IMG/VR virus record: IMGVR_UViG_3300036403_000039
Coordinates: 1 to 64,000 of that record
DNA: 64,000 bases
Direction: 5' to 3' (one strand)
Origin: a virus
Shown here one piece after another: positions 14,979-60,207 of this stretch. Position numbers and translations under genes: made by a program. Position 1 is the stretch's first letter. The number at the start of each line of letters is the position of its first letter. Under the pieces are notes generated by a model. The model was not told where the DNA came from. It saw only the letters and a list, made by a program, of their open reading frames with translations, and did no database searches.

Positions 14979-16388
14979 CTGAACACGCTCAACGTCGAGT
15001 ACCGCAAGGTCGAGGCGCTGATCCCCTACGCCCGCAATCCACGCACGCACACGGATGAGCAGGTGGCCAAGATCGCCGCCAGCATCGTCGAGTACGGCTG
15101 GACGAATCCGGTGCTGGTGGACGGCGACAACGGGATCATCGCGGGCCACGGTCGCTTGGCCGCCGCGCGCAAGCTGGGGCTCGATCAGGTGCCGGTCATT
15201 GAACTGGCGCACCTCTCGCCCACGCAGAAGCGCGCCTACGTCATCTCTGACAACCGGCTGGCACTCGATGCCGGTTGGAACGAGGAGATGCTGGCGCTGG
15301 AGATGGCCGAGCTGTCTGAGGCCGGGTACGACCTCGCCTTGACCGGCTTCGAGGATGCCGAGATCGAGGCCTTGTTCGCTGACGACGTGGAAACCGATGA
15401 CGCTGACCAGGAGGCAGGTGCCGACGAGCCGGACGCTGCTGACGATGTGCCGGATGCCCCTGTGGTGCCGGTGTCCTGCACCGGCGATGTCTGGGCCATC
15501 GGGCCCCACCGTCTGATCTGTGGCGACGCCACCGACCCGACCGTCGTCGCCGCGCTGATTCAGGGCGATGCGGCCCGGCTGTGCTTCACCTCGCCGCCCT
15601 ACGGCAACCAGCGTGAGTACACCAGCGGCGGTGTCAAGGATTGGGATGGCCTGATGCGCGGCGTGTTTGCCAACGTGCCAATGGCCGACGACGGCCAGGT
15701 GCTGGTCAACCTCGGGTTGATCCACCGCGACAACGAAGTCATCCCGTATTGGGATGCGTGGCTCGGTTGGATGCGCACGCAGGGCTGGCGGCGTTTCGCT
15801 TGGTACGTCTGGGATCAAGGGCCAGGGATGCCGGGGGACTGGGCCGGTCGCTTCGCCCCGAGTTTCGAGTTCGTCTTTCACTTCAACCGCGCCAGTCGCA
15901 AGCCCAACAAGATCGTGCCCTGCAAGCACGCGGGCCAGGAGTCGCACCTGCGCGCTGACGGGTCGTCCACGGCCATGCGTGGCAAGGACGGCGAGGTCGG
16001 CGGCTGGACACACAAGGGGCAGCCGACGCAGGACACGCGGATTCCCGACTCGGTGATCCGCGTGATGCGCCACAAGGGCAAGATCGGTCAGGACATCGAC
16101 CACCCGGCCGTGTTCCCGGTGGCGCTGCCGGAGTTCGTGATCGACGCCTATTCGGACACCGGCGACATCGTGTTCGAACCCTTCGGCGGTAGCGGCACCA
16201 CCATGCTGGCCGCGCAGCGCACCGGTCGTGTGTGTCGCAGCGTGGAGATCGCGCCGGAGTACGTGGATGTCGCCATCAAGCGCTTCCAACAGAACCACCC
16301 CGGCGTGTCGGTGACGCTGTTGGCAACAGGCCAGTCCTTTGACGAGGTGGTCAATGAACGTCTGGCTACCACGGAGGCCACGCAATGA
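14979..16388 (+). CDS. ParB-domain DNA methyltransferase (first of pair)
   Basis: About 469 residues. The N-terminal ParB/sulfiredoxin-like domain has IPYARNPRTHTDEQ and IIAGHGRLAAARKLG. An acidic linker follows (about 130-165), then an amino-methyltransferase domain with TSPPYGNQ (catalytic DPPY-type motif IV) and FEPFGGSGTTMLAA (motif I, SAM binding), order IV then I as in beta-class enzymes. The open frame extends to 14829, but that would place a hairpin inside the gene. GAGG at 14967-14970 precedes a CTG (14979) that gives the family's usual N terminus LNTLNVEYRKVEAL, so I infer a non-AUG start. It may protect phage DNA or modify the packaging region. Confidence 0.88.
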   Translation: MNTLNVEYRKVEALIPYARNPRTHTDEQVAKIAASIVEYGWTNPVLVDGDNGIIAGHGRLAAARKLGLDQVPVIELAHLSPTQKRAYVISDNRLALDAGWNEEMLALEMAELSEAGYDLALTGFEDAEIEALFADDVETDDADQEAGADEPDAADDVPDAPVVPVSCTGDVWAIGPHRLICGDATDPTVVAALIQGDAARLCFTSPPYGNQREYTSGGVKDWDGLMRGVFANVPMADDGQVLVNLGLIHRDNEVIPYWDAWLGWMRTQGWRRFAWYVWDQGPGMPGDWAGRFAPSFEFVFHFNRASRKPNKIVPCKHAGQESHLRADGSSTAMRGKDGEVGGWTHKGQPTQDTRIPDSVIRVMRHKGKIGQDIDHPAVFPVALPEFVIDAYSDTGDIVFEPFGGSGTTMLAAQRTGRVCRSVEIAPEYVDVAIKRFQQNHPGVSVTLLATGQSFDEVVNERLATTEATQ

Positions 16389-43561: not shown

Positions 43562-44034
43562 TCGAGACATTGCTCGGTGGCCTCCTGGGCGGGGCCTTCC
43601 GTCTCGCGCCCGAATTGCTCAAATGGCTCGACCGCCAAGGCGAGCGTGGCCACGAACTGGCGATGCAAGACAAGGCGCTGGAATTCGAAAAGCTGCGTGG
43701 CGCGCAGCGCATGGCCGAAATCGGTGCGAGCGCCGATGCGGCGTGGAACGTCGGAGCCATCGATGCTCTGCGCGACGCCGTCCGCACCCAAGGTGAGAAG
43801 ACCGGCGTGCGCTGGGCCGACGCGCTCTCAACCAGCGTGCGTCCGGTGATCACCTACTGGTTCATGGCTCTGTATTGCGCGGCCAAGACGGCCGCATTTG
43901 CGGCTGCCGTCACCGCTGGCGCTAGTTGGGGTACGGCCATCCTGCACGCCTGGACAGAAGCCGATCAGGCCCTGTGGGCCGGTGTGCTGAACTTCTGGTT
44001 CCTCGGACGCGTGTTCGACCGGGTGCGTTCGTGA
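43558..44034 (+). CDS. Holin-like phage membrane protein
   Basis: A 158-residue protein. It has an N-terminal hydrophobic stretch (ETLLGGLLGGAFRLAPELL), a charged coiled-coil middle (HELAMQDKALEFEKLRGAQRM) and two C-terminal hydrophobic helices (VITYWFMALYCAAKTAAFAAAV and LWAGVLNFWFLGRVF). The place directly before the lysozyme suggests a holin, although the family is not named. It overlaps both neighbours by 4 bases. Confidence 0.65.
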   Translation: MIETLLGGLLGGAFRLAPELLKWLDRQGERGHELAMQDKALEFEKLRGAQRMAEIGASADAAWNVGAIDALRDAVRTQGEKTGVRWADALSTSVRPVITYWFMALYCAAKTAAFAAAVTAGASWGTAILHAWTEADQALWAGVLNFWFLGRVFDRVRS

Positions 44035-44489
44035 GCGAAGTGCCGAAAACGGCCATCGAGCTGGCCAAGCGATTCGAGGGGTTCCACCGCGTGCCAAAGG
44101 CCGATCCTGGACGTGCGCACCCGTACATCTGCCCCGCAGGGTACTGGACGATTGGCTATGGCCATCTGTGTGATGCGAAGCACCCGCCGATCACCGAGGC
44201 CGAAGCAGATGTCTATCTGGCGCGCGACCTGCAGACGGCGCTCGCCGCGACGCTGCGTTACTGCCCGGTGCTTGCCGCCGAACCCGAAGGGCGGCTGTCG
44301 GCCATCGTGGACTTCACGTTCAACCTTGGCGCGGGGCGGCTACAGACGTCGACGTTGCGGAGAAGGATCAACCAGCGGGACTGGGTCGCTGCTGGGCAGG
44401 AATTGCGCCGCTGGATCTATGGCGGCGGCAAGGTACTTCCCGGCTTGGTCGCGCGCCGTGAGGCGGAAGCGCGCATCCTGTCGGCTTGA
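44031..44489 (+). CDS. Phage lysozyme (GH24 endolysin)
   Basis: A 152-residue muramidase. ELAKRFEGFHR carries the catalytic Glu16, and PYICPAGYWTIGYGH gives Cys34 and Thr40 in the E-C-T triad of GH24 enzymes. No signal peptide is visible, so it needs the holin to reach the wall. The GTG start at 44031 overlaps the previous stop (GTGA). It is the last rightward phage gene. Confidence 0.93.
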   Translation: MSEVPKTAIELAKRFEGFHRVPKADPGRAHPYICPAGYWTIGYGHLCDAKHPPITEAEADVYLARDLQTALAATLRYCPVLAAEPEGRLSAIVDFTFNLGAGRLQTSTLRRRINQRDWVAAGQELRRWIYGGGKVLPGLVARREAEARILSA

Positions 44490-44502
44490 CACACATTGAT
44501 CC

Positions 44503-45393
44503 TCAAGTCCACACCTGATCCAGGTTCTTCGCTGCCAGCAACTTGTCTCGAAGCGCGTAGCGCGACGACTGCATGTTGACCTCGCTGCTCTCCGGGCGCG
44601 GGATCGGAACAATGGCCGTTGCCGCCCCTTTGAACTTGATCATGTACTTGCCCGTGTCGTTGTACGGAACGATGGCGTCAATCTCGGCGATGTGGGTGAT
44701 GGCAGCAACAGGGGCGACCTGATAGGCCGCGATGAACTTCAGTTTCGAGATGTGCTTCGCATTGATCCGCACGGCGAACCAGCAGTGCTCGTTCAGAAAG
44801 CGTTGCTTGAACCCTTCCTCGCGTGCCGGGACAACGATGGTGTCGAACTTGTCGCTCTCAGAACCGACGGGTTGTACCTGATCGCTCGGGTCGTCCTGCT
44901 TGGGCGGCGTGAAGGCGTTGATTCCAAGCATTGGCAGGATCAACAACATATCAGCAAGGAATGCCTGGGCCGTGGCCTTTGCTGCGGGGGCCATCGTCGG
45001 AGCAGTTGGGTTGTTCTTGTTCAGAAGAATGGCCCGGTCGTGCTTTTTGGCCAGAGCAACCAATGCAGATTCCAGGTACTGAACTTCCGTCTTGCCGATC
45101 TTGTGGTTGCGGTCGAAGAAGTAGACGCCCCAAACCCATCCCTCCTTGTTCGAGACGTGATTCTTCAAGCGGTCGCCGACGGGATCAGCCTCGCCGATGT
45201 AGATCGTCTCTTCGGCAGCATTGCCCACAAGGATGTAGATACCGGCCTGGGAGAAGCCAGGTTCCTGCTTCAGCAGGTGGAACAGTTCCCTGTTGAAGAC
45301 GACGCCGTAGCCCGACCAGTTCGACTTGTCGAGGTGGCGAATCCCTTCGGGATCGCCTGTGGTGGCGAACAGCGTGATTGAAAACGGCTGCAT
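44503..45393 (-). CDS. GIY-YIG nuclease family protein at the end of the defence operon
   Basis: A 296-residue protein. The GIY-YIG domain lies at residues about 49-120: GIYILVG (Tyr53), TIYIGEADP (Tyr65, Gly67), Arg75 and Glu108 (QYLESAL), the expected catalytic set. The C-terminal part (about 165-296) has VVPAREEGFKQRFLNEHCWFAVRI, a domain also found in DUF4357-like restriction contexts, with likely DNA binding. It is the last gene of the leftward operon (34 bases after the Res gene) and probably belongs to it. Confidence 0.85.
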   Translation of the reverse strand: MQPFSITLFATTGDPEGIRHLDKSNWSGYGVVFNRELFHLLKQEPGFSQAGIYILVGNAAEETIYIGEADPVGDRLKNHVSNKEGWVWGVYFFDRNHKIGKTEVQYLESALVALAKKHDRAILLNKNNPTAPTMAPAAKATAQAFLADMLLILPMLGINAFTPPKQDDPSDQVQPVGSESDKFDTIVVPAREEGFKQRFLNEHCWFAVRINAKHISKLKFIAAYQVAPVAAITHIAEIDAIVPYNDTGKYMIKFKGAATAIVPIPRPESSEVNMQSSRYALRDKLLAAKNLDQVWT

Positions 45394-45427
45394 AAATTTT
45401 TCCCCGATTCGTTTTTTTACGTGGCTG

Positions 45428-48400
45428 CTACTTCACCAGCTCCATCAGTTTGCCGAAGCTGTTCACCACGTCGTACTTGACGTTCTCGGGAGCGTACTTC
45501 TGGTTGATCTCGTCGAAGAACTTGCGGGCGCACTTGATCTTGGTTTTCTCGATCTCGTTGAGCACCATTGACGACATCGACCCCTTGGTCTCGGCGACGA
45601 AGTACACGTGCTTGACTGTGCCCTCCTTGAACGATACGGCCCAGTCTGGGTTGTAGTCGCCAACGGGGGTGGGTATCAGGAAGCCGCGAGGCAACTTGGC
45701 GTACACGACGACTTCCGTGCAGGTATCGAGCTCCTTCACAAACTCCCGCTCGATCCCGGAATCCGTGATCACGTAGTCGTAGATGTGCCGCTTGAGCTTG
45801 TCACCGGCCTTGCTGAAGTCCTGTTTGGTCTGGCCTGCGGTGAAGATGTCGAGGTCGAATTTGTCCTCCACCGAGTCGTAGGCCAAGTGCTCGATGATCA
45901 TCGTTGCCTTCTGCTCGTTGATCAGTCGAACTGCCTCGGCGATGAAGCTTTCCGGATTGGTGCGGAACTGTGCAAACACCGCGACGCTGATCCCCTTGAG
46001 GATGTCAGCCGTCGTGCGCCGGGTCAGTTGCGTTCCCTCGGCAACCTTCCCGATGAGGTCGTACTTCACGGCTGAGTGGATGGAATGCACATTTTTTTCA
46101 GTTTCGGTGTCTTTGAGTACGAACGCCTCGCCATCCTTTAGCTCGTCATAGGACACTTGTGCAGCCTGCTCACCAGTTTGAATCGTGTATTGCAACGGCG
46201 TTACCCGAAGGCTTTTGTCCAGTTCTGTGACGGCCTTCGTGACCAACTCCGCTGAATCAAAGTCAACGCTGTAGGCTGCTTTGCGATTGATCCGGCTCCA
46301 CAGCTCCTTGAATTCCTGCTTGTCAAAGTTACTGTTGAGCGGGTTCTTCTTGGGGCGACGGTCGTCGGTGATTTCAAACATCTGGCTGTCGCTGAAGACG
46401 CTGTCGATCAGCTGGTACACCTGCTCGGCGTAGGCCTGCAATTCCGGGGGCAGCGGTACCAGGGTGCCTTCCTTCTTTGCCTCGTGGTACGTGCCTGTGA
46501 TGCGGTCGGTGTCATCGCTGTAGTCGTTCTTAAGCAGGTACTTATAGATCTGCTTGGCCAGCTGTGGCGTGATCTCGACATCCCCGGTGGCGGTCTTGAG
46601 AACCTTGCCAGTGAAGTAGGCTTCGTCTGCCACCTTGGGGCGTGCCGACAAGGACTCGCTGATGTCCTTCTGCAGTGCAGAGACGAAGTCTTTGTAACTT
46701 TCGCTGGCCACAACCGTGAGCACGTTGACGTCATGGACGGTGGCCGGATGATCCATTCGGTCGCCAGTCTGGTTGACAGACAAACGCAGACCACGGCCCA
46801 CTTCCTGTCGCCGCGAAATGGTGTTGTCACTGTGCTTGAGCGCACAGATCACGAACACGTTCGGGTTGTCCCAGCCCTCACGCAGAGCCGAGTGCGAGAA
46901 GATAAAGCGTACGGGCTCCTGCAATGACAACAAGCGCTCTTTCTGCTTCAAGATCAGGTCATAAGCGTCCACGTCATCAGACAGCCCGGCACCCTCACCA
47001 CGGGCGGCAACTGCAGGGTCAACGTCACGCTTGGTCTTCTTGTCGATGGAGAAATAGCCCTTGTGTGTCTTGGCTGGGGCGATCTCCTTCAAGTACTTGA
47101 TGTACGGCGTTTCATCCAGGTCAAGCACCTCGTTCAGGTACTGGCTGTATTCCTCTTCGAAGATCCGGGCGTAGTCGCCTTTCTCATCGGCCGCAGCGTA
47201 ATCCCGGTACTTGGCAACTTCGTCAATGAAGAATAGGGTCAATACCTTGATGCCTTGCTGGAACAGCACCTGCTCCTTGTCAAAGTGCGCCTTGATGGCT
47301 TCACGAATCTGGATTCGACGCAGCGCAGCCTCGTTCACATCACCATTGGCCTCGCCGACAAATAGTTCTACACCGTTGGTAAAACTTAAGGTGTCAGTAT
47401 TGGCGTTGATTTCCGACACCACATAGCCGCGATACTGATCTAGACCGCTCGAGAGGTCGAAAAGATTGTCGGTCTTCACCAGTTTGCGCACCACGCGCTT
47501 GATCTCGCCACTCTTCAGCTTCTGTTCAAACTCGACACGCGCCTCTGGGGGCTTCTTGGTCGAAATCTCGATGGACTGCAGGTACAGGTAGGCATTGGTT
47601 CCGGCGAGGCCCTTCACCGAGATGCCACGCACAGCGATCTTCTTCACCAGCTTCTGGTTGTAGGCATCCAACGCGTCTAGCCGGTGGATTTTGTTGTGCG
47701 AGGTCTTGTGGGTAGCCGAATACCGCAGCACCATCAGCGCCTTGAATTCCTCTAAGGACTTCAGGGTGGCAGCACCTTCCATCTTTTGCGGCTCGTCCAA
47801 GATAAGGACAGGGCGGTTGGCGCTGATGACATCAATCGGGCGGCGAGACTGGAAGTCATCGAGCTCGTCGTAGATGCGCCGGTTGTCAGCTCCTCGGGCG
47901 GCAAAAGCCTGGACGTTGATCACCATGACGTTGATCCCCGAATCTGAAGAGAAGCTCTCCAGTTGATGCAACTGCTTGGAGTTGTAGATGAAAAAACGCG
48001 CCTTCTTGCGGTATGTCTCCAGAAAGTGCTCGGCGGTGATTTCCAGCGACTTGGCCACACCCTCGCGGATGGCAATACTGGGCACAACAATGATGAACTT
48101 GCTCCAGCCGTACTGCTTGTTTAGTTCGAAGATAGTCTTGATATAGCAATAAGTCTTGCCGGTGCCCGTCTCCATCTCGATGTCGAGATTGACCTTGCTG
48201 ACTTTGTTCTTCACCAACTCCGTGGATTGCGGCAGATTCTGCTGATGCTGCACTCGGGTGATGTTCTCTAGCACCGCCACATCCGTCAGCTTCAGGTCGG
48301 CGTTCTTGAACCCCGATTCAGCAAAGAGGTCCTCAACCCCCTTCTTGGCCTTGCCTGGATCAATACGGTAACTGATGGCCTCTGGCGAGGCGGGTGGCTG

Positions 48401-48472
48401 ACCTTTGAAACAGTCAACCACGGCCTGTACAGCAGCCGATTGATATGACTGAACTTTGAACTTAAGTTTCAT
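45428..48472 (-). CDS. res: Type III restriction endonuclease Res-type helicase-nuclease
   Basis: A 1014-residue protein. The N-terminal SF2 helicase has METGTGKT (residues 100-107, Walker A) and [10 protein letters not shown] (motif II as DEPQ) near residue 225. A later helicase half contains [14 protein letters not shown] and [17 protein letters not shown] (motif VI). The C terminus contains NPDW...VAETKG (about residues 942-963), a PD-(D/E)XK endonuclease motif as in EcoP15I Res. It follows the Mod gene in the same operon and should cut DNA after translocation when cognate sites are unmethylated. Confidence 0.93.
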
Positions 48473-48508
48473 CGCTTGGCCACCTGCGATTTCTAATTTT
48501 GACTGCAG

Positions 48509-49183
48509 TCAGCATTGATTGACCTTTTGGGATAAGTGTTCCTTGAATTCTTCCTGCGAAACAACTTCATCGTCCGAATCGCTAAACTCAATGTATAGCT
48601 CCGTTGATTCGCGAATAATCTTCTTGGAAACTGTATAGTTCTTGCTCAAATTGGGCTTGATAAATACATATTTTTCAACCGGCTGCATATAGTGAAGTAT
48701 TAGCCAAACGTCTTCGGTCGGATGATTCTTTGCGTAGTTGAGCTTATCCGGCCGAACCCAATACGTTTGACCTCTCATTACCTCGGTCCCTGTGACCTCC
48801 ACTAGCAACACTACTGCTAGGCCTCCGCTTGTTCTTACCTCAAGATCGGGCTTTCCAGATTCCGAAGGATGGCCAGAAATGAATTCTCCGCTATCAGCGC
48901 CAAAGCCAACGATTTCTACAGTTACCCGACCATCTAGTCCTTCGATGAGGCTCTTGACTTTCTGAAGTCTCACTTTTTCTTTTGCCCATGCGCTTTCGCC
49001 GTACGCATGCTTCCAGTGGTGAGTTTCAAGCTCCTTAATCTGATCGCAGCCTATTTGCTGACCAATCTTAATGTTGAGCGCCGGAAATGTTCGTTCCCTG
49101 ATGCTGGTGCAGTAAGCGCCATCAACGTAAATCCAGTAACGCTGACGGTCTTGCTTGAAGACTATGTCGGTTATTTTTGGCAT
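48509..49183 (-). CDS. RecX-like N-terminus with nuclease-like domain, unknown
   Basis: A 224-residue protein between Mod and Res. Residues 1-75 (ITDIVFKQDRQRYWIYVDGAYC, then LNIKIGQQIGCDQIKELE) follow the pattern of the RecX N-terminal domain. Residues about 105-170 contain KPDLEV, then VVLLVEVTGT, then YWVRPDKLNYA, which resembles the spacing of a PD-(D/E)XK or related nuclease core (Asp, Glu and a later Lys), although the E-x-K is E-V-T. I know of no family with this combination. The coding DNA is visibly more AT-rich than the rest of the operon. Confidence 0.7.
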   Translation of the reverse strand: MPKITDIVFKQDRQRYWIYVDGAYCTSIRERTFPALNIKIGQQIGCDQIKELETHHWKHAYGESAWAKEKVRLQKVKSLIEGLDGRVTVEIVGFGADSGEFISGHPSESGKPDLEVRTSGGLAVVLLVEVTGTEVMRGQTYWVRPDKLNYAKNHPTEDVWLILHYMQPVEKYVFIKPNLSKNYTVSKKIIRESTELYIEFSDSDDEVVSQEEFKEHLSQKVNQC

Positions 49184-49233
49184 TTGATTCTCTTCCTGGT
49201 TTGATGGTGGTTCTTGTTAAAAGAAGGAGACTC

Positions 49234-51129
49234 TTACAAGACCTTAATCTCGGTGACAGGAGAGAGCAGCTTGAAGATTTGCTCAACATTTATCTTGACC
49301 GAACTGTCCTTAAACCCGGCATCGCGAAACACAGCGCGCAAAGGCTGTAATTTAGCCAGTTCCTTTACAAATGCCTCGTCGATTCTTCCATCGTCGCTAA
49401 AGCATGCAGCCATCGCATTGCCATCAACGCAGAACACATTTAGCCCACAGATATTCTGAGTGGAAACTGGAAGTCCCAGGTCTACGCCCCAGTCGAGCAT
49501 CACTTGAAAGAGCAGGTCTTCGGCGGTTCGGCCAGTCTTTATGTTGTCAACGAAGAGATCAAGATTTGATTTCTCAAGTGCATCGGGCACGTAATAGATA
49601 TCTGCCATGTTTGATGTGTCAATCTTGAGAACTCTGAAGCCAACGTCTCGATTCCAGCGTTCATTGCGGCCGCCTTGCAGTAGCTTTTTTCCAACGCGCC
49701 GAATTCGCTCCTTGCCGATATCTGCGATGTTGGTGAAGCCCGCTTTTGCCGCCTCACTACTCGGTTCGCATAGCTCTGGTAACTGCACCAATATGAATCT
49801 GGCGTTGCAGCCAGTTTCTGCAGCTCTGGCTAAAATGGCGTGCGCAGTCGTAGCTGAGCCGGAGAAAAAGTCGAGCACGATATCGGACTCATCCGAGAGG
49901 CATTGAGATGCCAGCGAGGACACAAGTTGAGTGGACTTCGGGTGTGGGAATAGCTTTGCGCTGAAAATATCCTGCAGTTCTCTGGTGGCCTGAGTGTTTG
50001 CGGGGGCAATGAGGGAATTGGCGATGCGATCCTCGACCTTAGATACGATCCAGGTTGAAACAGGAACAGTGTCGAATTTGGCCTCATTCTTGAAGCGCTT
50101 TAACATCGGGCGGCCTGAAGCAGTGGCAGGAAAAATTATCCTTCCTTCGGCAATTTTTTCAGCCATTGTCTTTCGGCTGTATGGCCAATATCGACCCTCG
50201 GGGGGCAAAAATTCGTGGCCTCTTTTCGGGTCTTTGATTGGGTAGTGGACGTCTCCGCCAGCTTTTCCCGCACTTAAGTTGTCAGCCTTCCAAGGGCCTC
50301 TCGGATCGTTGTCCGGATTGTTGTATCCCTCGTAGGTTCGTTCAATTCCAGCAAGACGCCCTTTACTCTTTGCATAACAAAGTACGTATTCGTGATCAAC
50401 GCTTGTATTGTCGACCGAATCCATTGCGCCACTTCGGCGTTTCCAGACAAAGCTACAGTAAAAGTTCTGCGAACCAAATACCTCGTCACACACCGCCCTA
50501 AGATTCGATACTTCGAAGTCGTCAATGGAAATAAAAATTACCCCATCATCTGATAACAGGTTCCTGGCGAGTCGCAAACGCGGAAGCATCATGCTCAACC
50601 AGTCGGAGTGAAAGCGACCGTTCGACTCCGAGTTCGCAATTAATCTATTTCCCTGGTCATCGACCTGTTTTGAGCGCTCGAAGTACGACGTGCTATCTTC
50701 GGCGAAATCGTCCTCATAAATAAAGTCGCTACCAGTGTTGTATGGTGGATCGATGTAGATCATCTTCACCTTGCCGAGATAGGTTTCCTGCAATAGCTTC
50801 AGCGCGTCGAGGTTGTCACCTTCGATGAATAGGTTTTTCGTGCTGTCGAAATCCACGCTTTCCGCTCGACAAGGGCGCAGCGTCTTTGCGATTGGGGCGT
50901 TTGCAGTAAGTACCGCTTCACGTTTTCCTGGCCAACTGAGGTGATAGCGTTCTTGCGGTCCGTCGACTACAGAATCAGAAAGTTCCTGTCGCAGTTGGTC
51001 AAAATCCACCGCCAGTTTGGTACAACCATCGTCATCCTTTATTTCTTTGACGCAACCGGGAAAGACATCCCGTAGATGCCTGATGTTGTCCTGTGTGAGG
51101 TTGGGCGAGTGCATTTTTGGTTTTTCCAT
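49234..51129 (-). CDS. mod: Type III DNA methyltransferase Mod
   Basis: A 631-residue beta-class adenine-N6 methyltransferase. IYIDPPYNTGSDF (Asp127-Tyr130, motif IV) comes before VLDFFSGSATTAHAI (motif I, residues 418-431), with the long target-recognition region between them as in EcoP1I-type Mod. The N-terminal helix (NIRHLRDVFPGCVKEI) is typical. It marks host DNA and gives specificity to Res. The base composition is clearly lower in GC than the flanking helicase and Res genes, which suggests separate acquisition. Confidence 0.92.
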   Translation of the reverse strand: MEKPKMHSPNLTQDNIRHLRDVFPGCVKEIKDDDGCTKLAVDFDQLRQELSDSVVDGPQERYHLSWPGKREAVLTANAPIAKTLRPCRAESVDFDSTKNLFIEGDNLDALKLLQETYLGKVKMIYIDPPYNTGSDFIYEDDFAEDSTSYFERSKQVDDQGNRLIANSESNGRFHSDWLSMMLPRLRLARNLLSDDGVIFISIDDFEVSNLRAVCDEVFGSQNFYCSFVWKRRSGAMDSVDNTSVDHEYVLCYAKSKGRLAGIERTYEGYNNPDNDPRGPWKADNLSAGKAGGDVHYPIKDPKRGHEFLPPEGRYWPYSRKTMAEKIAEGRIIFPATASGRPMLKRFKNEAKFDTVPVSTWIVSKVEDRIANSLIAPANTQATRELQDIFSAKLFPHPKSTQLVSSLASQCLSDESDIVLDFFSGSATTAHAILARAAETGCNARFILVQLPELCEPSSEAAKAGFTNIADIGKERIRRVGKKLLQGGRNERWNRDVGFRVLKIDTSNMADIYYVPDALEKSNLDLFVDNIKTGRTAEDLLFQVMLDWGVDLGLPVSTQNICGLNVFCVDGNAMAACFSDDGRIDEAFVKELAKLQPLRAVFRDAGFKDSSVKINVEQIFKLLSPVTEIKVL

Positions 51130-51154
51130 GTTCTTTTCCTTTGGCCGCTAGTAA

Positions 51155-51832
51155 TCAGTGGCTTAACTGTTCAAGTTCTGTTTGAAGTTGTCGCAAGGCG
51201 GCATTGATTTCGACCTTGCGATTAAATTGTTTTTCTTTGGAAAGTCTGCTGGCCGTCTTGTCGACCTCGCGCTGCTTCGACGCAACCAGCTCCACGCGGG
51301 CAACCAAATCGGCAAGACCTTCTCTCCCTCGTGCGGGCAATGGAATCAGCCGCTTCAACAGTTGCTCATACAAACCGCCCAGGTCGAGCGCAAGCGGCAT
51401 TGCCGCACGCTGGGCATCGTTCGGTAGCCAGCCGCAAGCAAAGTACTCGCTCAGCACCCAGCGGCTTACGTCTGTTTCATTGGGGCGCTTGTAGGCCGCG
51501 ACGACTTGCGTTTGTCCATCAAAGCTCAGCTCGAACACGACGGGGAACTGCACAGCCCCATCAATGCAGCGCAGCACGTCTAGATTCAGCTCTGGTGTCT
51601 TGAGCTGAATGGCGAAGACTTGAATCTCTGGCACCCCCGGCTTGGCGGGCAGGTTGATCGTTTCCGGAGCTAGCTTGTATTGCCAGACGATCTGCTCTAC
51701 CTGTTCAACGAACAACTCCTTCAGCCGCGTGTTGGCACCGCTGTGCTCGTAAATCTTGTTCTTTGGCAGGTTGCGTCCAAAAGTGGCTTGCTTGGGGTAG
51801 CTGATGAAGGCCGGATGTGTGGGCTGGCTCAT
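51155..51832 (-). CDS. DUF4391 domain protein
   Basis: A 225-residue protein matching DUF4391: SYPKQATFGRNLPKNKIYEHSGAN near the start, a beta-rich core (VFAIQLKTPELNLDVLRCIDGAVQFPVVFEL) and a coiled-coil end (VASKQREVDKTASRLSKEKQF). This family is found next to helicase-methylase loci in bacterial defence islands; its role is unknown. It overlaps the helicase stop by 4 bases. Confidence 0.85.
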   Translation of the reverse strand: MSQPTHPAFISYPKQATFGRNLPKNKIYEHSGANTRLKELFVEQVEQIVWQYKLAPETINLPAKPGVPEIQVFAIQLKTPELNLDVLRCIDGAVQFPVVFELSFDGQTQVVAAYKRPNETDVSRWVLSEYFACGWLPNDAQRAAMPLALDLGGLYEQLLKRLIPLPARGREGLADLVARVELVASKQREVDKTASRLSKEKQFNRKVEINAALRQLQTELEQLSH

Positions 51833-54800
51833 TCGACCTCCTGAATCACGAGGAAGGTGATCAGTTCGAAGTCATCCAGCCCGGCAATGGTGTTGACCAG
51901 CGCGGTGGTCTTGCCGCCGCTGAAAAGGCTGTCCAGATCCTTCTCTTCCTTCACCTCGATCATCGAGCGGATCGTCTTTCCGAGCAGGTCTGAGTACGCC
52001 TGCATCTTGCGGCCGTCGGCCGTTTCCTTGTTGAATAGGCGGCAGGCATCCGGAATAGGCTGTGCTTGCCCCTTGCAGCAACTGCGCACCAGATCGAGCA
52101 GCCGTTTGACCTCGGTGTGGTCGTGAATCACCTCACCCTCGCGGTTGATGTAGACGAGGTAGTAGGGGTGCAGTCGGTTGTGCAGGCTGACGTTGACACT
52201 TGGATTCAGGTTGCGCAGCGTGAATATCACGCCAGGGCGCAGGCCCAGCTCTGGCTTGGCAGGTACCACGGCGTGCATCCCGCTTGGCATATTGCTCAAT
52301 TCGCCATTGGCCTTGACGTAGTTGAGCAAGTCCATGCGGAAGTCATTGAGCCCCAGGTCAGTGATCGAAACGCCGGTCTTCAGGTCTTCCAGTTCGATCA
52401 CTTCCTCTTGCAGGCGACGCAGTTGCTCCTTGCGGTAGGACACGTCATTGGCTTGTGCGCTCAGCACGTTGTCGTCACCGGTGGCCGTGACGTCGGCAAT
52501 CATCATCCGGCTTTCAACCCGCTCCTTGAGGTTGATGTACTCGTCGAGCGAGATGTCCGGCCAGTAGTTGACCAGCTGGATGCTGGTATTGGGTGAGCCG
52601 ATGCGATCCACCCGCCCGAAGCGCTGGATGATGCGCACGGGGTTCCAGTGGATGTCGTAGTTGATCAGGTAGTCGCAGTCCTGCAGGTTCTGGCCTTCGG
52701 AAATGCAGTCGGTGCCAATCAGCAAGTCAATCTCTGCTGGTTCGTTCGGCAGCACGATGGCCTTCTCCTTCGAGCGCGGCGAGAAGAGGGTGAGCAGTTC
52801 CTGGAAGTCGTAGCTCTTCTTGAGCGTGGACTTCGGGGCACCCTTGCCAGTGACTTTGGCGCTGTGCAGGGCCTGCGTTGCCAGCAGCTCCGGTGCCAAA
52901 TTGGCAAACAGATAGTCAGCGGTGTCGGCGAAGGCCGTGAAAATCAGCACCTTTTTGTTGCCGGGATTCAGCGGTGCTGCGATCTTTCCCAGAACCAGTG
53001 CCTTCAGATGCTGCAGCTTGGCGTCATCAGCAGGCGTGATCTTGTTCATCGAAGCCAGCAAGGCATCAATGATCTCCAGATCGACTTTCAGCTCGTGTTC
53101 CCACGAGGGCAAGTCCATGTCGGCGAGGCTGATCTTGACCTTGCCGCCGATCTCATCATCGCCAAGAGCTGGCAAGTCGTCGTCGTCCGCGTCGAGGTTT
53201 TCCAACTGGTCGGTTAGGTCATCGATGCTGGCGACGTTGCCGGTCTGATTGAATGTGCTGATCTTGGTCAGCGTATTGGTGTGGTTCGCCCGCAGCGACT
53301 GGAGCGTCAAGCGGAAGGACTGAATCGAACTTTCGAGGCGCTTGAGCAGGTTAGTCGTCATCAACGCCTGCAGACTTTTCTCGCGGTCAGCTTGCTTAAG
53401 CTTGCCTTTGCCAGCGACCTGCGTGTCGTACATCTCCTCGTACTTCTTGAGCCGACTCGGCAGGATGTAGCTGATCGGCGCGTAGACAGCGAGCTTGAGC
53501 AGGGACAGTTGCTCGAAGATCTCGTTGAAGCTCATCACATCAGTTCGCTGCGTGAGCGGGCTGTGGAACGACAGGGGCTTTCGACGCTCGGGGAATTGGC
53601 CGATGTCCTTGGTGTCGTAGAAAGTCTGGATGTGCTTACGCGAGCGTGCGATGGTGACGCTGTCGAGCAGTTCGAAGAAGTCAAAGTCCAACGAATCCAG
53701 GATGGCCCGCGCTGTGCGCTCTTCCGGTGGAAGCTTTGCCCATGCGTTGAAGCTGGCCTGCGCGCCACGGAATATGTCCTCTACCGTCTTGCCGGTGCGC
53801 AGCTTCTTGCTGAGGTTCTCGGAGTCACCCTCGTAGGCCAGTGCCAGTTGATTGCGCAGGTCATTGAAGCGGTTGTTCACCGGAGTGGCCGAAAGCATCA
53901 GCACCTTGGTTTTAACTCCCTCCTTGATGACCTTGTTCATCAGCTTCTGGTACCGGGTCTCCTTGTCTTTGTAGGCGTCGTTGTTCCGGAAGTTGTGCGA
54001 CTCGTCGATGACGACGAGGTCGTAGTTGCCCCAATTGATGCGGTTCAGCGGTGTGCCAAACGACTCGCCGCTGGTGCGGCTGAGGTCGGTATGGCAGAGC
54101 ACGTCATAGTTGAACCGGTCGCGGGCAAAGATGTTGGTCTTGAGGTTGCGGTTGTAGTTCAGCCAGTTGTCGGCCAGCTTCTTAGGGCACAACACCAGCA
54201 CGGAACGGTTTCGCAGCTCGTAGTACTTGACGACTGCCAAGGCCGTGAAGGTCTTGCCCAGGCCGACGCTGTCGGCCAGGATGCAGCCGCTGTAGGTCTC
54301 GAGTTTGTTGATGATCCCGGTGGCCGCATCCTTCTGGTAGTTGAAGAGCTTGTTCCAGATGAGCGTGTCTTGGTAGCCCGTGCGGTCGTTCGGCAGGACG
54401 TCCTCGTTGATGTCGTCGAGGAACTCGTTGAAGATGTTGTAGAGCATCAGAAAGTAGATGCTCTCGGGCGAGTTCTCCTGGTAGACCGATGCGATGTGGT
54501 CGCAAATCTGCGCGGTCACATCTTCCAGCTTGTCTGGGTCTTGCCAGATCTGGTTGAACAGACTGAGGTAGGTGGCAGTGAAGGTTGGCTCGTCCATCTT
54601 GTTGACGAGGTTGGAGACTGCATTGCCTTGCTGGTAGCCGAGGTCGACGGCGGTGAAGCCGTGCAATGGCATATAGGCCGTATCTGTGGCGGCCGCCTGC
54701 ACACAGGCGAATTGCTGCATCGGGGCCTTACTGCGATTCGACTTGAAGGTCGCCTTGCGTCGCATCCAGTCAGCGCACTCCTTTGCAATCGCGCGCTGGG

Positions 54801-55098
54801 TCAGCTTGTTGCGCAGCTGAATCTCGAACTCACTCCCGTACAGGCTCCGTTCGCGGTCAGCCTTGGGGATGTGGAACTCCTTGCGTTCCTTGCGAATCTT
54901 GTCCGTGACCTCGTTGGCGACGAACGTCGGCGAAGTGAAGATGAAGTTCAGCTCGTCGATCTTTTCCAGCTCTGCTTTCAGCGCTTCGAACGCGTACATC
55001 GAGAAGCAGGAGGCTGCGATCTTCAGGCGGGCACCGGGCTTGAGCGTCTGCTTGAGGTCGTCGCCGAGCAGGCGGTTGATGTTGTCGATGAGTTCCAT
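51829..55098 (-). CDS. SNF2-type helicase-related protein
   Basis: A 1089-residue protein. The N-terminal about 170 residues resemble the PLD-like region of restriction-type helicases, although no HKD motif is visible. The helicase has ILADSVGLGKT (Walker A, Lys282), VVIDESHNF (Asp365-His368), and a C-terminal lobe with SEGQNLQDCDYLINYDIHWNPVRIIQRFGRVDRIG. Such proteins translocate on duplex DNA. The start at 55098 overlaps the WYL gene by ATGA, so they are co-translated. The first ATG of the longer frame would extend into the WYL gene. Confidence 0.9.
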   Translation of the reverse strand: MELIDNINRLLGDDLKQTLKPGARLKIAASCFSMYAFEALKAELEKIDELNFIFTSPTFVANEVTDKIRKERKEFHIPKADRERSLYGSEFEIQLRNKLTQRAIAKECADWMRRKATFKSNRSKAPMQQFACVQAAATDTAYMPLHGFTAVDLGYQQGNAVSNLVNKMDEPTFTATYLSLFNQIWQDPDKLEDVTAQICDHIASVYQENSPESIYFLMLYNIFNEFLDDINEDVLPNDRTGYQDTLIWNKLFNYQKDAATGIINKLETYSGCILADSVGLGKTFTALAVVKYYELRNRSVLVLCPKKLADNWLNYNRNLKTNIFARDRFNYDVLCHTDLSRTSGESFGTPLNRINWGNYDLVVIDESHNFRNNDAYKDKETRYQKLMNKVIKEGVKTKVLMLSATPVNNRFNDLRNQLALAYEGDSENLSKKLRTGKTVEDIFRGAQASFNAWAKLPPEERTARAILDSLDFDFFELLDSVTIARSRKHIQTFYDTKDIGQFPERRKPLSFHSPLTQRTDVMSFNEIFEQLSLLKLAVYAPISYILPSRLKKYEEMYDTQVAGKGKLKQADREKSLQALMTTNLLKRLESSIQSFRLTLQSLRANHTNTLTKISTFNQTGNVASIDDLTDQLENLDADDDDLPALGDDEIGGKVKISLADMDLPSWEHELKVDLEIIDALLASMNKITPADDAKLQHLKALVLGKIAAPLNPGNKKVLIFTAFADTADYLFANLAPELLATQALHSAKVTGKGAPKSTLKKSYDFQELLTLFSPRSKEKAIVLPNEPAEIDLLIGTDCISEGQNLQDCDYLINYDIHWNPVRIIQRFGRVDRIGSPNTSIQLVNYWPDISLDEYINLKERVESRMMIADVTATGDDNVLSAQANDVSYRKEQLRRLQEEVIELEDLKTGVSITDLGLNDFRMDLLNYVKANGELSNMPSGMHAVVPAKPELGLRPGVIFTLRNLNPSVNVSLHNRLHPYYLVYINREGEVIHDHTEVKRLLDLVRSCCKGQAQPIPDACRLFNKETADGRKMQAYSDLLGKTIRSMIEVKEEKDLDSLFSGGKTTALVNTIAGLDDFELITFLVIQEVE

Positions 55099-56000
55099 CA
55101 AGAATCCGCCTTTGGAGACGTGGCGTAGCCAGGAGCCAGTAGCGCGTTCTTCACGCCGTAAAGTGCCAGATGGTCTTTGAGCCACAGGCGGTATTCGGGG
55201 CCACGCAGGCGGTGGTCGGGGGAGCAGTCGACGCTCCAGCGCCGGAGCATGTATCCAGCAGTAGCGGCCCGAAGCTTCAGTGCCAGCACGCCGCCGGTGA
55301 AGCTGTAGTCGCGTGCCGTGATTTCAGGTCTAGGCTGGTCTGGATGCGGAACCAGTTCGATCTCGACAATCCGCGTCCACTGGATGTCGTCGTCAGGACG
55401 TTCGCCAAGCTTGGGGTCCTCGTCGAGTGTCCTGGGCGCTTCGATCCGAGTGATCACGAAGTCGCGGAACTCTCCGGTCTTGCGGTCGAATGCTCGGACG
55501 TGCCAACGTAGACCGCTGTCCACGAGCGCGAAGGGAACGATCACCCGCTCCGACTCTCCGTTGCTCACCGAGTGGTAACTGATGGCGACCGCACGCTTGG
55601 CGTGGATGGCTCTGCAGATAGGTGCCAGCACGTCCATGCAGGGGCTGCTCAGTGCAGCGGGGGCCTCGCAAGGCAATAGCGGGTGCGAATCACTGTTCAC
55701 GCCATCGCCAAACCCCAACGAAAGTGCCGACAGAACGCGCTGTGGTGCGTGCTCGAAAACCGGCGCGAAACTCTTGCCAATGCGGTAGATCTTGTTGCTG
55801 CCGTCGAACTCAATGTTTTGAGGGGCGACCTCGCGGTACAGGGCCAAGTCTCGCGTTGCACCCGCCGGTGCGACTCCGAATCGGCTAGTGAGATCAGGCC
55901 GTCCGATTTCGCCGATGAAGTACAGCCGGAAGTCGATGTAGGCGAGCCGCTCTCGTTGTGCGTGGCTCAGGCTCTCGACGCGTTGGGGGTGCATGGTCAT
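55098..56000 (-). CDS. WYL-domain transcriptional regulator (BrxR/CapW-like)
   Basis: A 300-residue regulator. An N-terminal winged helix (residues about 15-75: RLAYIDFRLYFIGEIGRPDLTSRFGVAPAGATRDLALYREVAP) is followed by a WYL domain (VPFALVDSGLRWHVRAFDRKTGEFRDFVI at about 180-210) and a C-terminal WCX-like part. This three-part plan is that of BrxR/CapW, which repress phage-defence operons until infection. The start MTMHPQ at 56000 has GAGGAGCGC upstream; an earlier in-frame ATG at 56048 lacks one. It overlaps the helicase gene. A perfect inverted repeat at 56075-56089 is the likely operator. Confidence 0.88.
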   Translation of the reverse strand: MTMHPQRVESLSHAQRERLAYIDFRLYFIGEIGRPDLTSRFGVAPAGATRDLALYREVAPQNIEFDGSNKIYRIGKSFAPVFEHAPQRVLSALSLGFGDGVNSDSHPLLPCEAPAALSSPCMDVLAPICRAIHAKRAVAISYHSVSNGESERVIVPFALVDSGLRWHVRAFDRKTGEFRDFVITRIEAPRTLDEDPKLGERPDDDIQWTRIVEIELVPHPDQPRPEITARDYSFTGGVLALKLRAATAGYMLRRWSVDCSPDHRLRGPEYRLWLKDHLALYGVKNALLAPGYATSPKADS

Positions 56001-56074
56001 GCGCTCCTCAACCGCCGCAAACGACGGAGGGACCGAAACCAACTTCACGTTTGCTCATTCGGGCGCGCCTCATA

Positions 56075-56089
56075 TCATCAAAATGATGA
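56075..56089. promoter_or_regulatory. Inverted repeat TCATCA-AAA-TGATGA, likely operator of WYL regulator
   Basis: A perfect 6-bp inverted repeat with 3-base spacer, about 75 bases upstream of the WYL gene start. BrxR/CapW regulators bind comparable short inverted repeats upstream of their own operons, so autoregulation is a reasonable inference. Confidence 0.5.
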
Positions 56090-56180
56090 CATTATGCGTG
56101 CAGTTTCAGGTTTGAGCAAGCGGCCAAATCGTCGAATCGACGGACTCAGGGCCAAGGCGTTACTATCTGGTTCTGATTGC

Positions 56181-56257: not shown

Positions 56258-56287
56258 AAAGCCCGCCCCGTGCGGGCTTTCTTGTTT
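56258..56287 (+). terminator. Intrinsic terminator upstream of integrase
   Basis: AAAGCCCGC, loop CCCGT, GCGGGCTTT, then CTTGTTT. A perfect 9-bp stem with a T-rich tail. It isolates the integrase from upstream transcription. Confidence 0.75.
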
Positions 56288-56377
56288 CTATACGTTCCTC
56301 AACAGATACACACAGCACGCGCCGCCGTGTATCCTCCGCTGTACCCGCCGCACAGATTGAAACTACGGGGTACACGG

Positions 56378-57604
56378 ATGAAGCGCAGTGAAATCAAACG
56401 TCGCCCGCTGGCAGACACAGTGGTCGCCACCCTTGAGCCGGAAGCCAAGGAGTACCGCGAGCACGACGGCAACAGCCTGTATCTGCGCGTCAAGCCGGAT
56501 GGCCGCAAATCGTGGCAGCTTCGCTACAAGAAGCCCGATGGCAAGTGGTCATGGATCGGCCTCGGCGGCTACCCCGAAGTGGGCGGCTCACTGGCTCGCC
56601 AGAAGGCGGCGGAAATGCGCGGCGATGTATCCCAGGGCCGCAACCCGCTGGCAATGAAACACGCGAGGAAAGCAGCAGAGGCAGAAGCCGCATCCAACAC
56701 CTTCGAAAAGCTCGCCCGCGAGTGGTACGCCAACAAGCGCAAGGGCTGGACGGAAGGAACGGCCGTGCGGACTATCGGCGCACTGGAGCTGCACGTTTTC
56801 CCGGTGCTCGGCAAACGCCCTTTCGCGGAGATTCTGCCCATCGAGTGGATGGAGTTTCTGCGCAACATGGAACAGAAAGGCATCGTCGAGCAGACGAGCC
56901 GCGTGCGGGGCATGTGCCGCGAAATCTACGACCTGGCGCGAGTGACCGGCCGGGCGACGCACAACCCGCTGGAGGGCCTGCACAAGTTCCTACAAACCCG
57001 GCCGGTGGAAAACTTCGCCCATGTATCCCAGGCGGAACTGCCCGCGCTCTTGCGTGCTATTCGGTCCTACCCCAGTGCCACCGACATTCGCATCGGCCTG
57101 CAACTGCTTTCCCTACTGGCCTGTCGACCTTCGGAGCTGCGCGAGGCCAGTTGGTCCGAGTTCGATCTTGATGGAGCCTTGTGGACAATCCCGGCCGAAC
57201 GCATGAAGCGCCGTCGGGAGCATTTGGTGCCGCTGCCTCAACAAGCCGTCGAGCTGCTGCGCGACCTGCACATACTGACCGGCACCTATCCTCTGCTCTT
57301 CCCTGGCCGCAGCGACTCGACCAAGCCCCGGAGCAATACCGTGTTCCTGATGGCGCTGCGCCGACTCGGCTATGAGGGCCGGCAAACCGGCCACGGCTTC
57401 CGGCACATCGCATCCACCACCCTCAACGAACATGGCTTCGATGAAAACCACATCGAGGCCCAGCTATCCCACGTCAAGGAAGGGGTAGCCGGCGTCTACA
57501 ACAAAGCGGTTTACCTGCCCCAGCGCCGGGAAATGATGCAGTGGTATGCCGACCACCTCGACAAGCTGGCCGGCGGTAACGTGGTGGCAATGAAACGCGC
57601 CTGA
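56378..57604 (+). CDS. P4-type tyrosine integrase
   Basis: A 408-residue recombinase. An N-terminal DUF4102/arm-binding domain (residues 1-95: YREHDGNSLYLRVKPDGRKSW) is followed by a core-binding helical domain and the catalytic domain. The catalytic set is Arg250 (LACRPSELR), His339/Arg342 (GHGFRH), His365 (LSHV) and nucleophile Tyr374 (VYNKAVY). P4-type integrases usually insert into tRNA or tmRNA 3' ends, consistent with the remnant at 56181-56212. The ATG at 56378 fits the family; the longer frame passes through the terminator. Confidence 0.95.
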   Translation: MKRSEIKRRPLADTVVATLEPEAKEYREHDGNSLYLRVKPDGRKSWQLRYKKPDGKWSWIGLGGYPEVGGSLARQKAAEMRGDVSQGRNPLAMKHARKAAEAEAASNTFEKLAREWYANKRKGWTEGTAVRTIGALELHVFPVLGKRPFAEILPIEWMEFLRNMEQKGIVEQTSRVRGMCREIYDLARVTGRATHNPLEGLHKFLQTRPVENFAHVSQAELPALLRAIRSYPSATDIRIGLQLLSLLACRPSELREASWSEFDLDGALWTIPAERMKRRREHLVPLPQQAVELLRDLHILTGTYPLLFPGRSDSTKPRSNTVFLMALRRLGYEGRQTGHGFRHIASTTLNEHGFDENHIEAQLSHVKEGVAGVYNKAVYLPQRREMMQWYADHLDKLAGGNVVAMKRA

Positions 57605-59139: not shown

Positions 59140-60207
59140 ATGAGCTATTTTCAACAGCGCCGCGAGGCGTTGCCGGGATCGGCTTGCCTGAAGAAAACCC
59201 GGATCGTCGAAGACATTCGCGCGGTGGCCGCCGTCGCCTTGCAGCACGCCGCCGCATTGGTGCCGGAGCTACTGCCGGAAGGCACCCGCAAGGGTAGCGA
59301 ATGGGTTGCGCGCAACCCCACGCGAGCCGACCGACAGGCCGGGAGCTTTTCGGTTTCCCTGGCGGACGGACGCTGGCATGACTTCGCCTGTGGTGACGGC
59401 GGCGGCGACTTGGTGTCGCTGGCTGCCTACCTATGGGACGTGAATCAGGCAGACGCCGCGTGCGACCTGGCCCGCCGGTTGGGCCTGCGCCTCGATGCGC
59501 TGGAGGGGCGGCAGGGTACTGGAGACAGTCACGACGATGGCCAGCGGCAGCGGCTGGCGGCGGCAAGGCTGGAAGTCGCGCAGCGCACCGCCCGCGAGGC
59601 CGAGCAGAAACGCCACAAGCAACAGACCGCCGCCGACTTTGCGCGCCGACTTTGGCAGGCCAGCGCCGCCGCCAACCCGGCGCACGCCTATCTGGCGGCG
59701 AAGCGGTTGCACGCCCACGACCTGCGCGAGCATCGCGGGGAGCTGCTTGTGCCGCTGCTCAATACAGCCGGCGAGCTGGTGAACCTGCAACGCATCGGCG
59801 CCGACGGCGGTAAGCGCTTTCTGTTTGGCGGCCAAGTGCTCGGCGCCTTCCACCTGCTGGGCCAAATCGCGCCGGGGCGGCGCCTGTTCGTCTGCGAGGG
59901 TTGGGCGACCGGCGCCACGCTGTTCGAACACTACGAAGGCGCCGACGCCGTGGCCTGCGCCATGAATGCCGGCAACCTGCGCCCGGTGGCCCAGGCTCTG
60001 CGCGCCAAGTACGGCGGCCTGATTGAGCTGGTAATGGCTGGCGATGACGACCGCCTGAGTGACGGCAATCCCGGCCGCACGGCTGCTGATTCTGCCGCCC
60101 TGGCGGTTGGGGCCATGGTGGTGTTCCCCGAGTGGCCGGCGGGGGCGCCGCTGGAGCTGTCCGACTTCAACGACCTGCACTGCTGGGACGCCTCCCATGA
60201 CCGATAG
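59140..60207 (+). CDS. Toprim primase-like protein
   Basis: A 355-residue protein. The N-terminal region has SFSVSLADGRWHDFACGDGGGDLVSLAAYL, the zinc-less DnaG-like entry seen in phage primases. A TOPRIM domain follows at about residues 245-350, with FVCEGWATGATL (Glu253) and MAGDDDRLSDG carrying the acidic metal-binding residues. It likely synthesises primers for the element and overlaps the DUF927 helicase, as these are commonly encoded in pairs. Confidence 0.88.
   Translation: MSYFQQRREALPGSACLKKTRIVEDIRAVAAVALQHAAALVPELLPEGTRKGSEWVARNPTRADRQAGSFSVSLADGRWHDFACGDGGGDLVSLAAYLWDVNQADAACDLARRLGLRLDALEGRQGTGDSHDDGQRQRLAAARLEVAQRTAREAEQKRHKQQTAADFARRLWQASAAANPAHAYLAAKRLHAHDLREHRGELLVPLLNTAGELVNLQRIGADGGKRFLFGGQVLGAFHLLGQIAPGRRLFVCEGWATGATLFEHYEGADAVACAMNAGNLRPVAQALRAKYGGLIELVMAGDDDRLSDGNPGRTAADSAALAVGAMVVFPEWPAGAPLELSDFNDLHCWDASHDR

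Follow-up and report, generated by a model that had tools for sequence, protein, structure and literature searches.

A predicted expanded type III restriction-modification system with SNF2 and DUF4391 genes in a temperate phage

Gene content and layout of the operon

We analyzed a 64,000-nucleotide stretch of DNA (hereafter the window) from a 65.6-kb IMG/VR virus record (IMGVR_UViG_3300036403_000039), and concentrated on an operon in which the mod and res genes of a type III restriction-modification system are accompanied by genes for a SNF2-family ATPase, a DUF4391 protein and three further products. The record is that of a temperate phage, with genes identified for a portal, terminase, tape measure, lysozyme and integrase. 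The seven open reading frames (ORFs) share the minus strand and make up a single leftward operon between the lysozyme and integrase genes; the gene order and domain labels given in an earlier note on this DNA were confirmed, as was its view that the genes follow the lysozyme at a cargo position of the phage. The features of the operon and its flanks are:

56270-57604: integrase, one flank of the operon (PHROG, 5e-65)
56070..56094, no strand assigned: candidate operator palindrome upstream of the WYL gene (core 56075-56089; 18-nucleotide arms 56063-56101)
55098..56048, minus strand: WYL regulator, first gene (Pfam WYL, 1.5e-13)
51829..55098, minus strand: SNF2-family ATPase (Pfam SNF2-rel_dom and Helicase_C)
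51155..51832, minus strand: DUF4391 protein (Pfam, 1e-56)
49234..51129, minus strand: Mod, type III DNA methyltransferase (N6_N4_Mtase; PADLOC MTase_III, 742 bits)
48509..49183, minus strand: RecX-like accessory gene in the Mod/Res slot (NCBIfam RecX, 8.9e-5, residues 1-55)
45428..48472, minus strand: Res, type III restriction subunit (ResIII and RE_endonuc, 7.6e-33; PADLOC REase_III, 1119 bits)
44503..45393, minus strand: GIY-YIG nuclease-like accessory gene after Res (PADLOC PDC-S14, 1e-49, residues 1-172)
43926-44489: phage lysozyme, other flank of the operon (Pfam, 2.7e-32)

The genes are tightly spaced. The overlap of 4 bases previously reported for two gene pairs is present between SNF2 and DUF4391 (ATGA); that between WYL and SNF2 is instead 1 base (TGATG), with an ATG start for SNF2. 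A mechanical ORF list placed the SNF2 start at a GTG at 55185, and its homologs begin at the ATG at 55098. The remaining genes are separated by gaps of 25 (DUF4391/Mod), 50 (Mod/RecX-like), 36 (RecX-like/Res) and 34 bases (Res/GIY-YIG).

A conserved four-gene core

Relatives of the operon were gathered via DUF4391 alone, which yielded 80 genome loci, 22 viral contigs and several plasmid records (cited below by L numbers for loci and G numbers for genomes); one further phage was gathered via SNF2. The order SNF2-DUF4391-Mod-Res was unchanged across the gathered loci: SNF2 lay immediately 5' of DUF4391 in 102 of the 109 DUF4391 loci, with Mod downstream in 101 and Res in 89 of the 109, and many of the exceptions were short contigs. 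The earlier note had suggested a neighborhood comparison of this kind to see whether the SNF2/DUF4391 and Mod/Res halves occur independently; the outcome was the opposite, the halves being almost always found together. Plasmid searches gave the same picture, as SNF2 at ≥62% identity and DUF4391 at ≥34% identity were each found in 38 records, and these were the identical 38 records; Res at ≥52% identity was found on 39 plasmids, 38 of which have SNF2 and DUF4391, the sole plasmid with Res that lacks them being Aeromonas veronii pHX3. DUF4391 scored over its Pfam cut-off in 17 of 399 Burkholderiales genomes (~4%), and SNF2 was in the same operon in all 17, one of these having a GmrSD-type gene in between and one locus being a pseudogene remnant. 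Full-length Res at ≥73% identity was found ten times among the Burkholderiales, nine times with SNF2 and DUF4391, the tenth being a decayed locus. The genome G266, with Res but neither SNF2 nor DUF4391, was considered as a counterexample and rejected, as its Mod is truncated.

The same core is present in Mycolicibacterium, Listeria, Enterococcus, Lactococcus, Providencia, E. coli and Erysipelothrix phage phi1605, as well as on a plasmid of the archaeon Methanomethylovorans hollandica; it is thus carried by plasmids, phages and chromosomes (an E. coli chromosomal example is L156). Across the 74 complete loci, the pairwise distance matrices for SNF2, for DUF4391 and for Res correlate with one another at Mantel r 0.91–0.95 (permutation maximum <0.44), and the Mod matrix correlates with these three at r 0.67–0.71. 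Because gene order is invariant, co-occurrence is near-constant, and SNF2, DUF4391 and Res diverge together, these comparisons indicate that SNF2, DUF4391, Mod and Res are one system and not two neighbors. The earlier proposal of a unitary seven-gene system does not stand, as only these four genes are conserved; the WYL gene was recognized in about 15 of ~110 loci, the RecX-like gene in five and the GIY-YIG gene in 5–6.

Several loci with this core have features of their own. On several ~110-kb IncFIB E. coli plasmids (L003 and relatives) it is found near repA, together with phage-like replication genes (dnaE, homing endonuclease), and this IncFIB-plasmid version was present in 10 of 5,426 E. 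coli genomes. The Erysipelothrix phage phi1605 (L110, 3194-12209) has the full four-gene core in a Gram-positive phage, with its DUF4391 gene annotated as a methyl-accepting chemotaxis protein. In L092 a second SNF2 homolog is encoded on the opposite strand upstream of the SNF2-DUF4391-Mod-Res operon, and in Lactococcus cremoris plasmid pJM1D (L117) IS712 interrupts the SNF2 gene, the DUF4391, Mod and Res genes being intact.

Mod, Res and the WYL regulator

Mod has the motifs of a beta-class methyltransferase (DPPY at 127, FSGS at 422), and its structural relatives include EcoP15I Mod (4zcf_A, 3.9e-60) and 6k0w_B (2.5e-82). Its identity profile across homologs places a hypervariable target-recognition domain at about residues 240–400; mean identity falls to 0.20 at residues 281–360, compared with 0.5–0.8 in the rest of the protein and 0.6–0.8 over most of both its ends, and residues 281–360 are presumed to be the recognition domain. 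Res consists of a superfamily 2 motor and a C-terminal PD-(D/E)xK endonuclease, with its motifs intact (GTGKT, DEPQ and PD..ETK), and matches EcoP15I Res (4zcf_C) at 1.1e-75. By these sequence criteria Mod and Res qualify as a type III restriction-modification system, and the earlier description of a type III base with extra genes was correct. Enzymes of this type methylate one strand of their asymmetric site and cut 25–27 bp from it, for which a pair of inverted sites is required.

The WYL protein matched BrxR of E. fergusonii (PDB 7qfz) at 1.4e-84 over query residues 24–310, and CapW (9c5g) at 2e-33; such matches bear out the BrxR/CapW-type label it had been given, and show it to be a true, near full-length BrxR relative. 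BrxR represses by binding inverted repeats (PMC9122601), and just upstream of the WYL gene is the palindrome ATRTCATCA-N3-TGATGAYAT, the core of which has a single match in the window and none in 100 shuffles. This core is at the same place 5' of the WYL gene in L008 and L131 and is partially present in L002, L014 and L018. By analogy with BrxR, the WYL protein likely represses the operon via this candidate operator. Type III systems are listed among the neighbors of BrxR in that study (PMC9122601), which does not mention SNF2 or DUF4391.

Exchangeable slots and accessory genes

One or more extra genes occupy the DUF4391/Mod or the Mod/Res interval in 34 of the 74 complete loci, and turnover is rapid: only 15% of locus pairs with SNF2 proteins 93–97% identical have the same cargo. 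The families tend to keep to their slots. The DUF4391/Mod slot holds an OLD ATPase with DUF2130, a 900-residue UvrD-like protein and most of the BRO and SIR2-HerA proteins; the Mod/Res slot holds YhcG/DUF1016, RhuM, most AlbA-Schlafen proteins and the RecX-like protein; and GIY-YIG is found in the slot after Res (the tail). Several of the slot families are PADLOC defense families or candidates (PDC-S02, S05, S13, S14, SIR2 and HerA). The fast-changing parts of the system are the Mod recognition domain and the genes of the tail and of both internal slots. Two related prophage contigs, L091 and L093, are 91–94% alike in their flanks, 91% in SNF2-DUF4391 and 84% in Res, and their Mod proteins are unalignable over most of their length, with the RecX-like gene present in L093. 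This swap indicates, therefore, that Mod and the gene in its slot can travel as one block.

The RecX-like gene was found only on viral contigs (the window, L090, L093, L094 and L095). An IMG/VR search for the family returned four loci, all already in the set; none was found in 72,556 plasmids, and the 399 Burkholderiales genomes gave one weak partial match only. The "RecX-like/nuclease-like" label of the earlier note holds in part, as the RecX similarity is limited to the first 55 residues and RecX repeats do not span the whole protein. An AlphaFold2 model built from a 4-sequence alignment (mean predicted local distance difference test score, pLDDT, 76) shows a fold past residue 55 that resembles PD-(D/E)xK nucleases of the Hjc type, and in a Foldseek search it matched the archaeal Holliday-junction resolvase Hjc (4tkk; 7.7e-4, probability 1.00) as well as RecX (3d5l). 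The PD-(D/E)xK residues Asp113 and Glu129 are conserved; since the usual ExK lysine is a threonine (Thr131), nuclease activity of this protein is uncertain. The GIY-YIG label likewise requires qualification: GIY, YIG, R75 and E108 are conserved and the relative in L095, which carries DUF4357, passes the Pfam cut-off, but the window copy (0.0043) falls below it, and the match to PDC-S14 covers the N-terminal half only. All seven genes recur in L095, which has another Mod-like gene as well, and in L090 only the WYL gene is missing from the set. The RecX-like and GIY-YIG genes are optional cargo in fixed slots, like many other genes of these loci.

SNF2, DUF4391 and a sister system

The motor motifs of SNF2 are intact (GLGKT, DESH and QRFGR), its best PADLOC model is C3a139 "HKD+Snf2" (3.7e-124), and RapA, the RNA-polymerase recycling ATPase, is among its nearest solved relatives. 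We also found a sister system, in which SNF2 homologs at ~43% identity have an N-terminal phospholipase D (PLD) nuclease domain:

L126:7694-14933 (G281): PLD-SNF2 and Eco57I-type methyltransferase
L125:4049-11402 (G081): PLD-SNF2 and Eco57I-type methyltransferase
L149:1676-9068: PLD-SNF2 and Eco57I-type methyltransferase

The N-termini of the sister SNF2 proteins have an intact PLD motif, HGKLYHIDD...GSSNFTRRGLG (PLDc_2, 1.9e-10). The N-terminal domain of the window's SNF2 corresponds to this PLD domain and has lost the HxK active site. The motif HxKx4D was present in just three of 113 SNF2 homologs, two of them sister-system proteins and one, that of phi1605, matching by chance, and on this count the possibility that the SNF2 N-terminus is an active PLD nuclease was rejected. 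The archaeal and second-subtype SNF2 proteins have a remnant, GSS.F...G.G, without HxK, and the window subtype keeps no remnant.

The AlphaFold2 model of DUF4391 (pLDDT 93.7) consists of an alpha/beta domain and a long C-terminal helical hairpin, for which no match at E≤1e-3 was found among PDB or viral structures; its top matches, to CorA, had a template modeling (TM) score of 0.16, and CorA was rejected as a structural relative. In the sister system the Eco57I-type methyltransferase gene is next to SNF2, at the position of DUF4391, and no Res was seen beside the SNF2/methyltransferase pair in L125, L126 and L149. The N-terminus of this methyltransferase is weakly DUF4391-like (Pfam 2.9e-4 for the L126 protein, short of the curated cut-off), and an hhalign comparison of the two gave an E-value of 8.5e-4, an earlier two-sequence version having returned a probability of 4%. 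Because the sister methyltransferase has this weakly DUF4391-like N-terminus and the sister SNF2 keeps its PLD motif, the comparison suggests that DUF4391 couples the motor to the methyltransferase, with cutting passed to Res. The pair of PLD-SNF2 and Eco57I-type methyltransferase may be a system not yet described. In L126 the pair has a Fic protein gene on its upstream side and AAA and other genes on its downstream side, and in L125 a RhuM-like gene lies downstream.

Phage setting

The G+C content of the operon genes is 0.46–0.62, below that of most of the surrounding phage (about 0.59–0.69). As the best DNA match to annotated phages, which is to Acidovorax phages, extends over only 0.9 kb at 71%, a Burkholderiales host is only a guess. 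Elsewhere in the window, a separate ParB_N and N6_N4 DNA methylase gene (14829-16388) is possibly the phage's orphan methyltransferase, and to the integrase side of the cargo, among the phage's replication genes (59140-62101), a DUF927 protein gene (60059-62101) adjoins a Toprim/zinc-ribbon primase-like gene (59140-60207).

Proposed mechanism and alternative explanations

The reading that we favor, and which we hold to be moderately probable, is that the operon encodes an expanded type III restriction-modification system of a temperate phage, most likely used by the lysogen in defense against other phages or mobile DNA, with DUF4391 as adaptor, SNF2 as motor and Res as the cutting enzyme. As in EcoP15I, Mod would mark one strand of an asymmetric site and recruit Res to cut unmarked DNA. 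DUF4391 would link the SNF2 motor with the Mod-Res complex; SNF2 may move along DNA or strip bound proteins, thereby aiding the search for unmethylated sites or the activation of cleavage at them, and the cutting itself would be done by Res. The RecX/Hjc-like and GIY-YIG proteins would be back-up nuclease-type effectors, interchangeable with other genes at the same slots, and the BrxR relative would repress the whole operon from the palindrome until relieved on infection. As to origin, the simplest reading, which we infer, would be that a motor-nuclease and methyltransferase pair joined Mod-Res and gave up its own nuclease, leaving a motor (SNF2) and an adaptor (DUF4391). A bolder version, which we offer tentatively and think improbable as a whole, is that of a four-protein machine descended from a PLD-SNF2/methyltransferase ancestor and working unlike EcoP15I (e.g., by motor-assisted cleavage without two inverted sites), and of a plug-in platform in which Mod is exchanged jointly with a back-up nuclease, the nested gene stepping in if a phage blocks Mod or Res.

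Several observations weigh against an adaptor and motor that serve cleavage. The SNF2-DUF4391 module is missing from intact Mod-Res lineages (the E. coli islands L153 and L155, and plasmid pHX3, L115), and its presence and absence require five changes on the Res tree; because several Mod-Res lineages are without the module, Mod-Res does not strictly depend on it, and the module would be of help without being indispensable. The resemblance of DUF4391 to the methyltransferase is sub-threshold, with an hhalign probability of only 24%. In addition, Murray et al. 2021 (PMC8259958) described an extra helicase-like ATPase encoded directly 5' of mod in the N4-methylcytosine (m4C) type III systems Eco86II and BspHIV, with such a gene close to mod-res in over 500 genomes. 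Methylation did not require this ATPase, and it went undetected in the Eco86II cutting fraction. Were it the same protein as the SNF2 described here, the role of SNF2 would not be in basic cleavage. The same dispensability (PMC8259958), the lineages lacking the module and the presence of RapA among the nearest solved relatives of SNF2 would suit SNF2-DUF4391 as a control or safety layer, for restriction alleviation or the resetting of stalled complexes, that travels with Mod-Res without aiding attack. We regard this as unlikely, as the intact PLD motif of the sister SNF2 points to an ancestral attack role, and intact Mod-Res loci that have lost SNF2-DUF4391 argue against a safety device that is needed. 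Mod-Res loci that lack SNF2 (L153, L155), and relatives of SNF2 paired with an Eco57I methyltransferase (L125, L126), could also be taken to mean that a type III restriction-modification system lies beside an independent SNF2/DUF4391/WYL module; DUF4391 is, however, essentially never without SNF2 and Mod in complete loci, and the invariant order, the co-divergence and the occurrence of the same core from proteobacteria to archaea make two systems side by side highly improbable.

A further question, touching novelty more than mechanism, is whether Murray et al. had already described this system as their three-gene m4C type III system, with its DUF4391 overlooked. The two have in common a large helicase-like ATPase that lacks PD-ExK, is encoded 5' of mod-res and occurs in many genomes, and the present system is also represented on E. 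coli chromosomes (L156), but their ATPase is immediately 5' of mod with one extra protein named, and here a DUF4391 gene intervenes; we judge identity to be a serious possibility that falls somewhat short of an even chance. As for the RecX-like and GIY-YIG genes, they could be roleless passengers kept by chance between their neighbors, given that each is found in few loci (about five), that cargo turnover is fast and that the RecX-like protein lacks the canonical ExK lysine. We find this rather doubtful: the slots are constant (RecX-like only between Mod and Res, GIY-YIG only after Res) and tightly spaced, several of the other families in them are defense genes or candidates (SIR2-HerA, OLD, YhcG, RhuM and BRO), and the RecX-like gene arrived together with a new Mod in the L091/L093 comparison.

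Should SNF2-DUF4391 indeed alter how type III enzymes find or cut DNA, the role of the extra ATPase beside many type III systems, left open by Murray et al., becomes testable. DUF4391, an uncharacterized protein for which no structural relative was detected, marks a four-gene restriction-modification lineage that plasmids and phages have carried across bacteria and archaea. Such loci would probably be labeled by annotation tools as plain type III restriction-modification, leaving SNF2 and DUF4391 outside. The slots of the operon are in turn a ready source of interchangeable defense genes, including the unstudied RecX/Hjc-like family.

Comparison with known systems

No named system in the PADLOC library covers this gene combination, in agreement with the earlier note; in the literature searched, no name or mechanism was found for the four-gene core, and DUF4391 was mentioned once, incidentally. 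The pairing of a SNF2 ATPase with a DNA methyltransferase is shared with class 1 DISARM, whose SNF2-like helicase DrmD was a sub-threshold match (141 bits compared with a cut-off of 610); membership was rejected, as no protein of the operon has the helicase DrmA, the DUF1998 protein DrmB or the PLD protein DrmC as its best match, DrmA showing up merely as a weak helicase-domain match of SNF2, and the nuclease is Res. The DUF499-centered BREX-related/Hma systems (PMC12839542) have a Swi2/Snf2 helicase (Type-2 with an N-terminal HKD nuclease) and an N6 methyltransferase, in a restriction-modification-like arrangement; the seven proteins include no DUF499 AAA+ ATPase, and membership was rejected, as was membership of BREX itself, PglZ and BrxC being absent from the seven. 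The PADLOC models C3a139 (HKD+Snf2) and PDC-S14, the best matches of the SNF2 and GIY-YIG genes, are single-protein models, and the HKD site of the former is lost here. With the BrxR/CapW WYL regulators (PMC9122601) the operon shares near full-length homology and an inverted repeat 5' of the regulator gene, the operator sequence being its own.

The closest comparisons are to type III systems. In common with Eco86II and BspHIV, which we compared by description, is a widespread large ATPase without PD-ExK encoded 5' of mod-res; no DUF4391 is reported for them and BspHIV has ~140 bp of non-coding DNA before mod, whereas in the window and nearly all loci a DUF4391 gene of roughly 0.6–1 kb lies between SNF2 and Mod. 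With the classical type III enzymes (EcoP15I and EcoP1I, Mod2Res), Mod and Res are clearly homologous and their motifs intact; here, there are two additional core genes (SNF2 and DUF4391) 5' of mod, nested cargo slots and a BrxR regulator. The core is broader than that of classical type III, yet its main engine is of a known kind, type III restriction-modification with nested exchangeable cargo.

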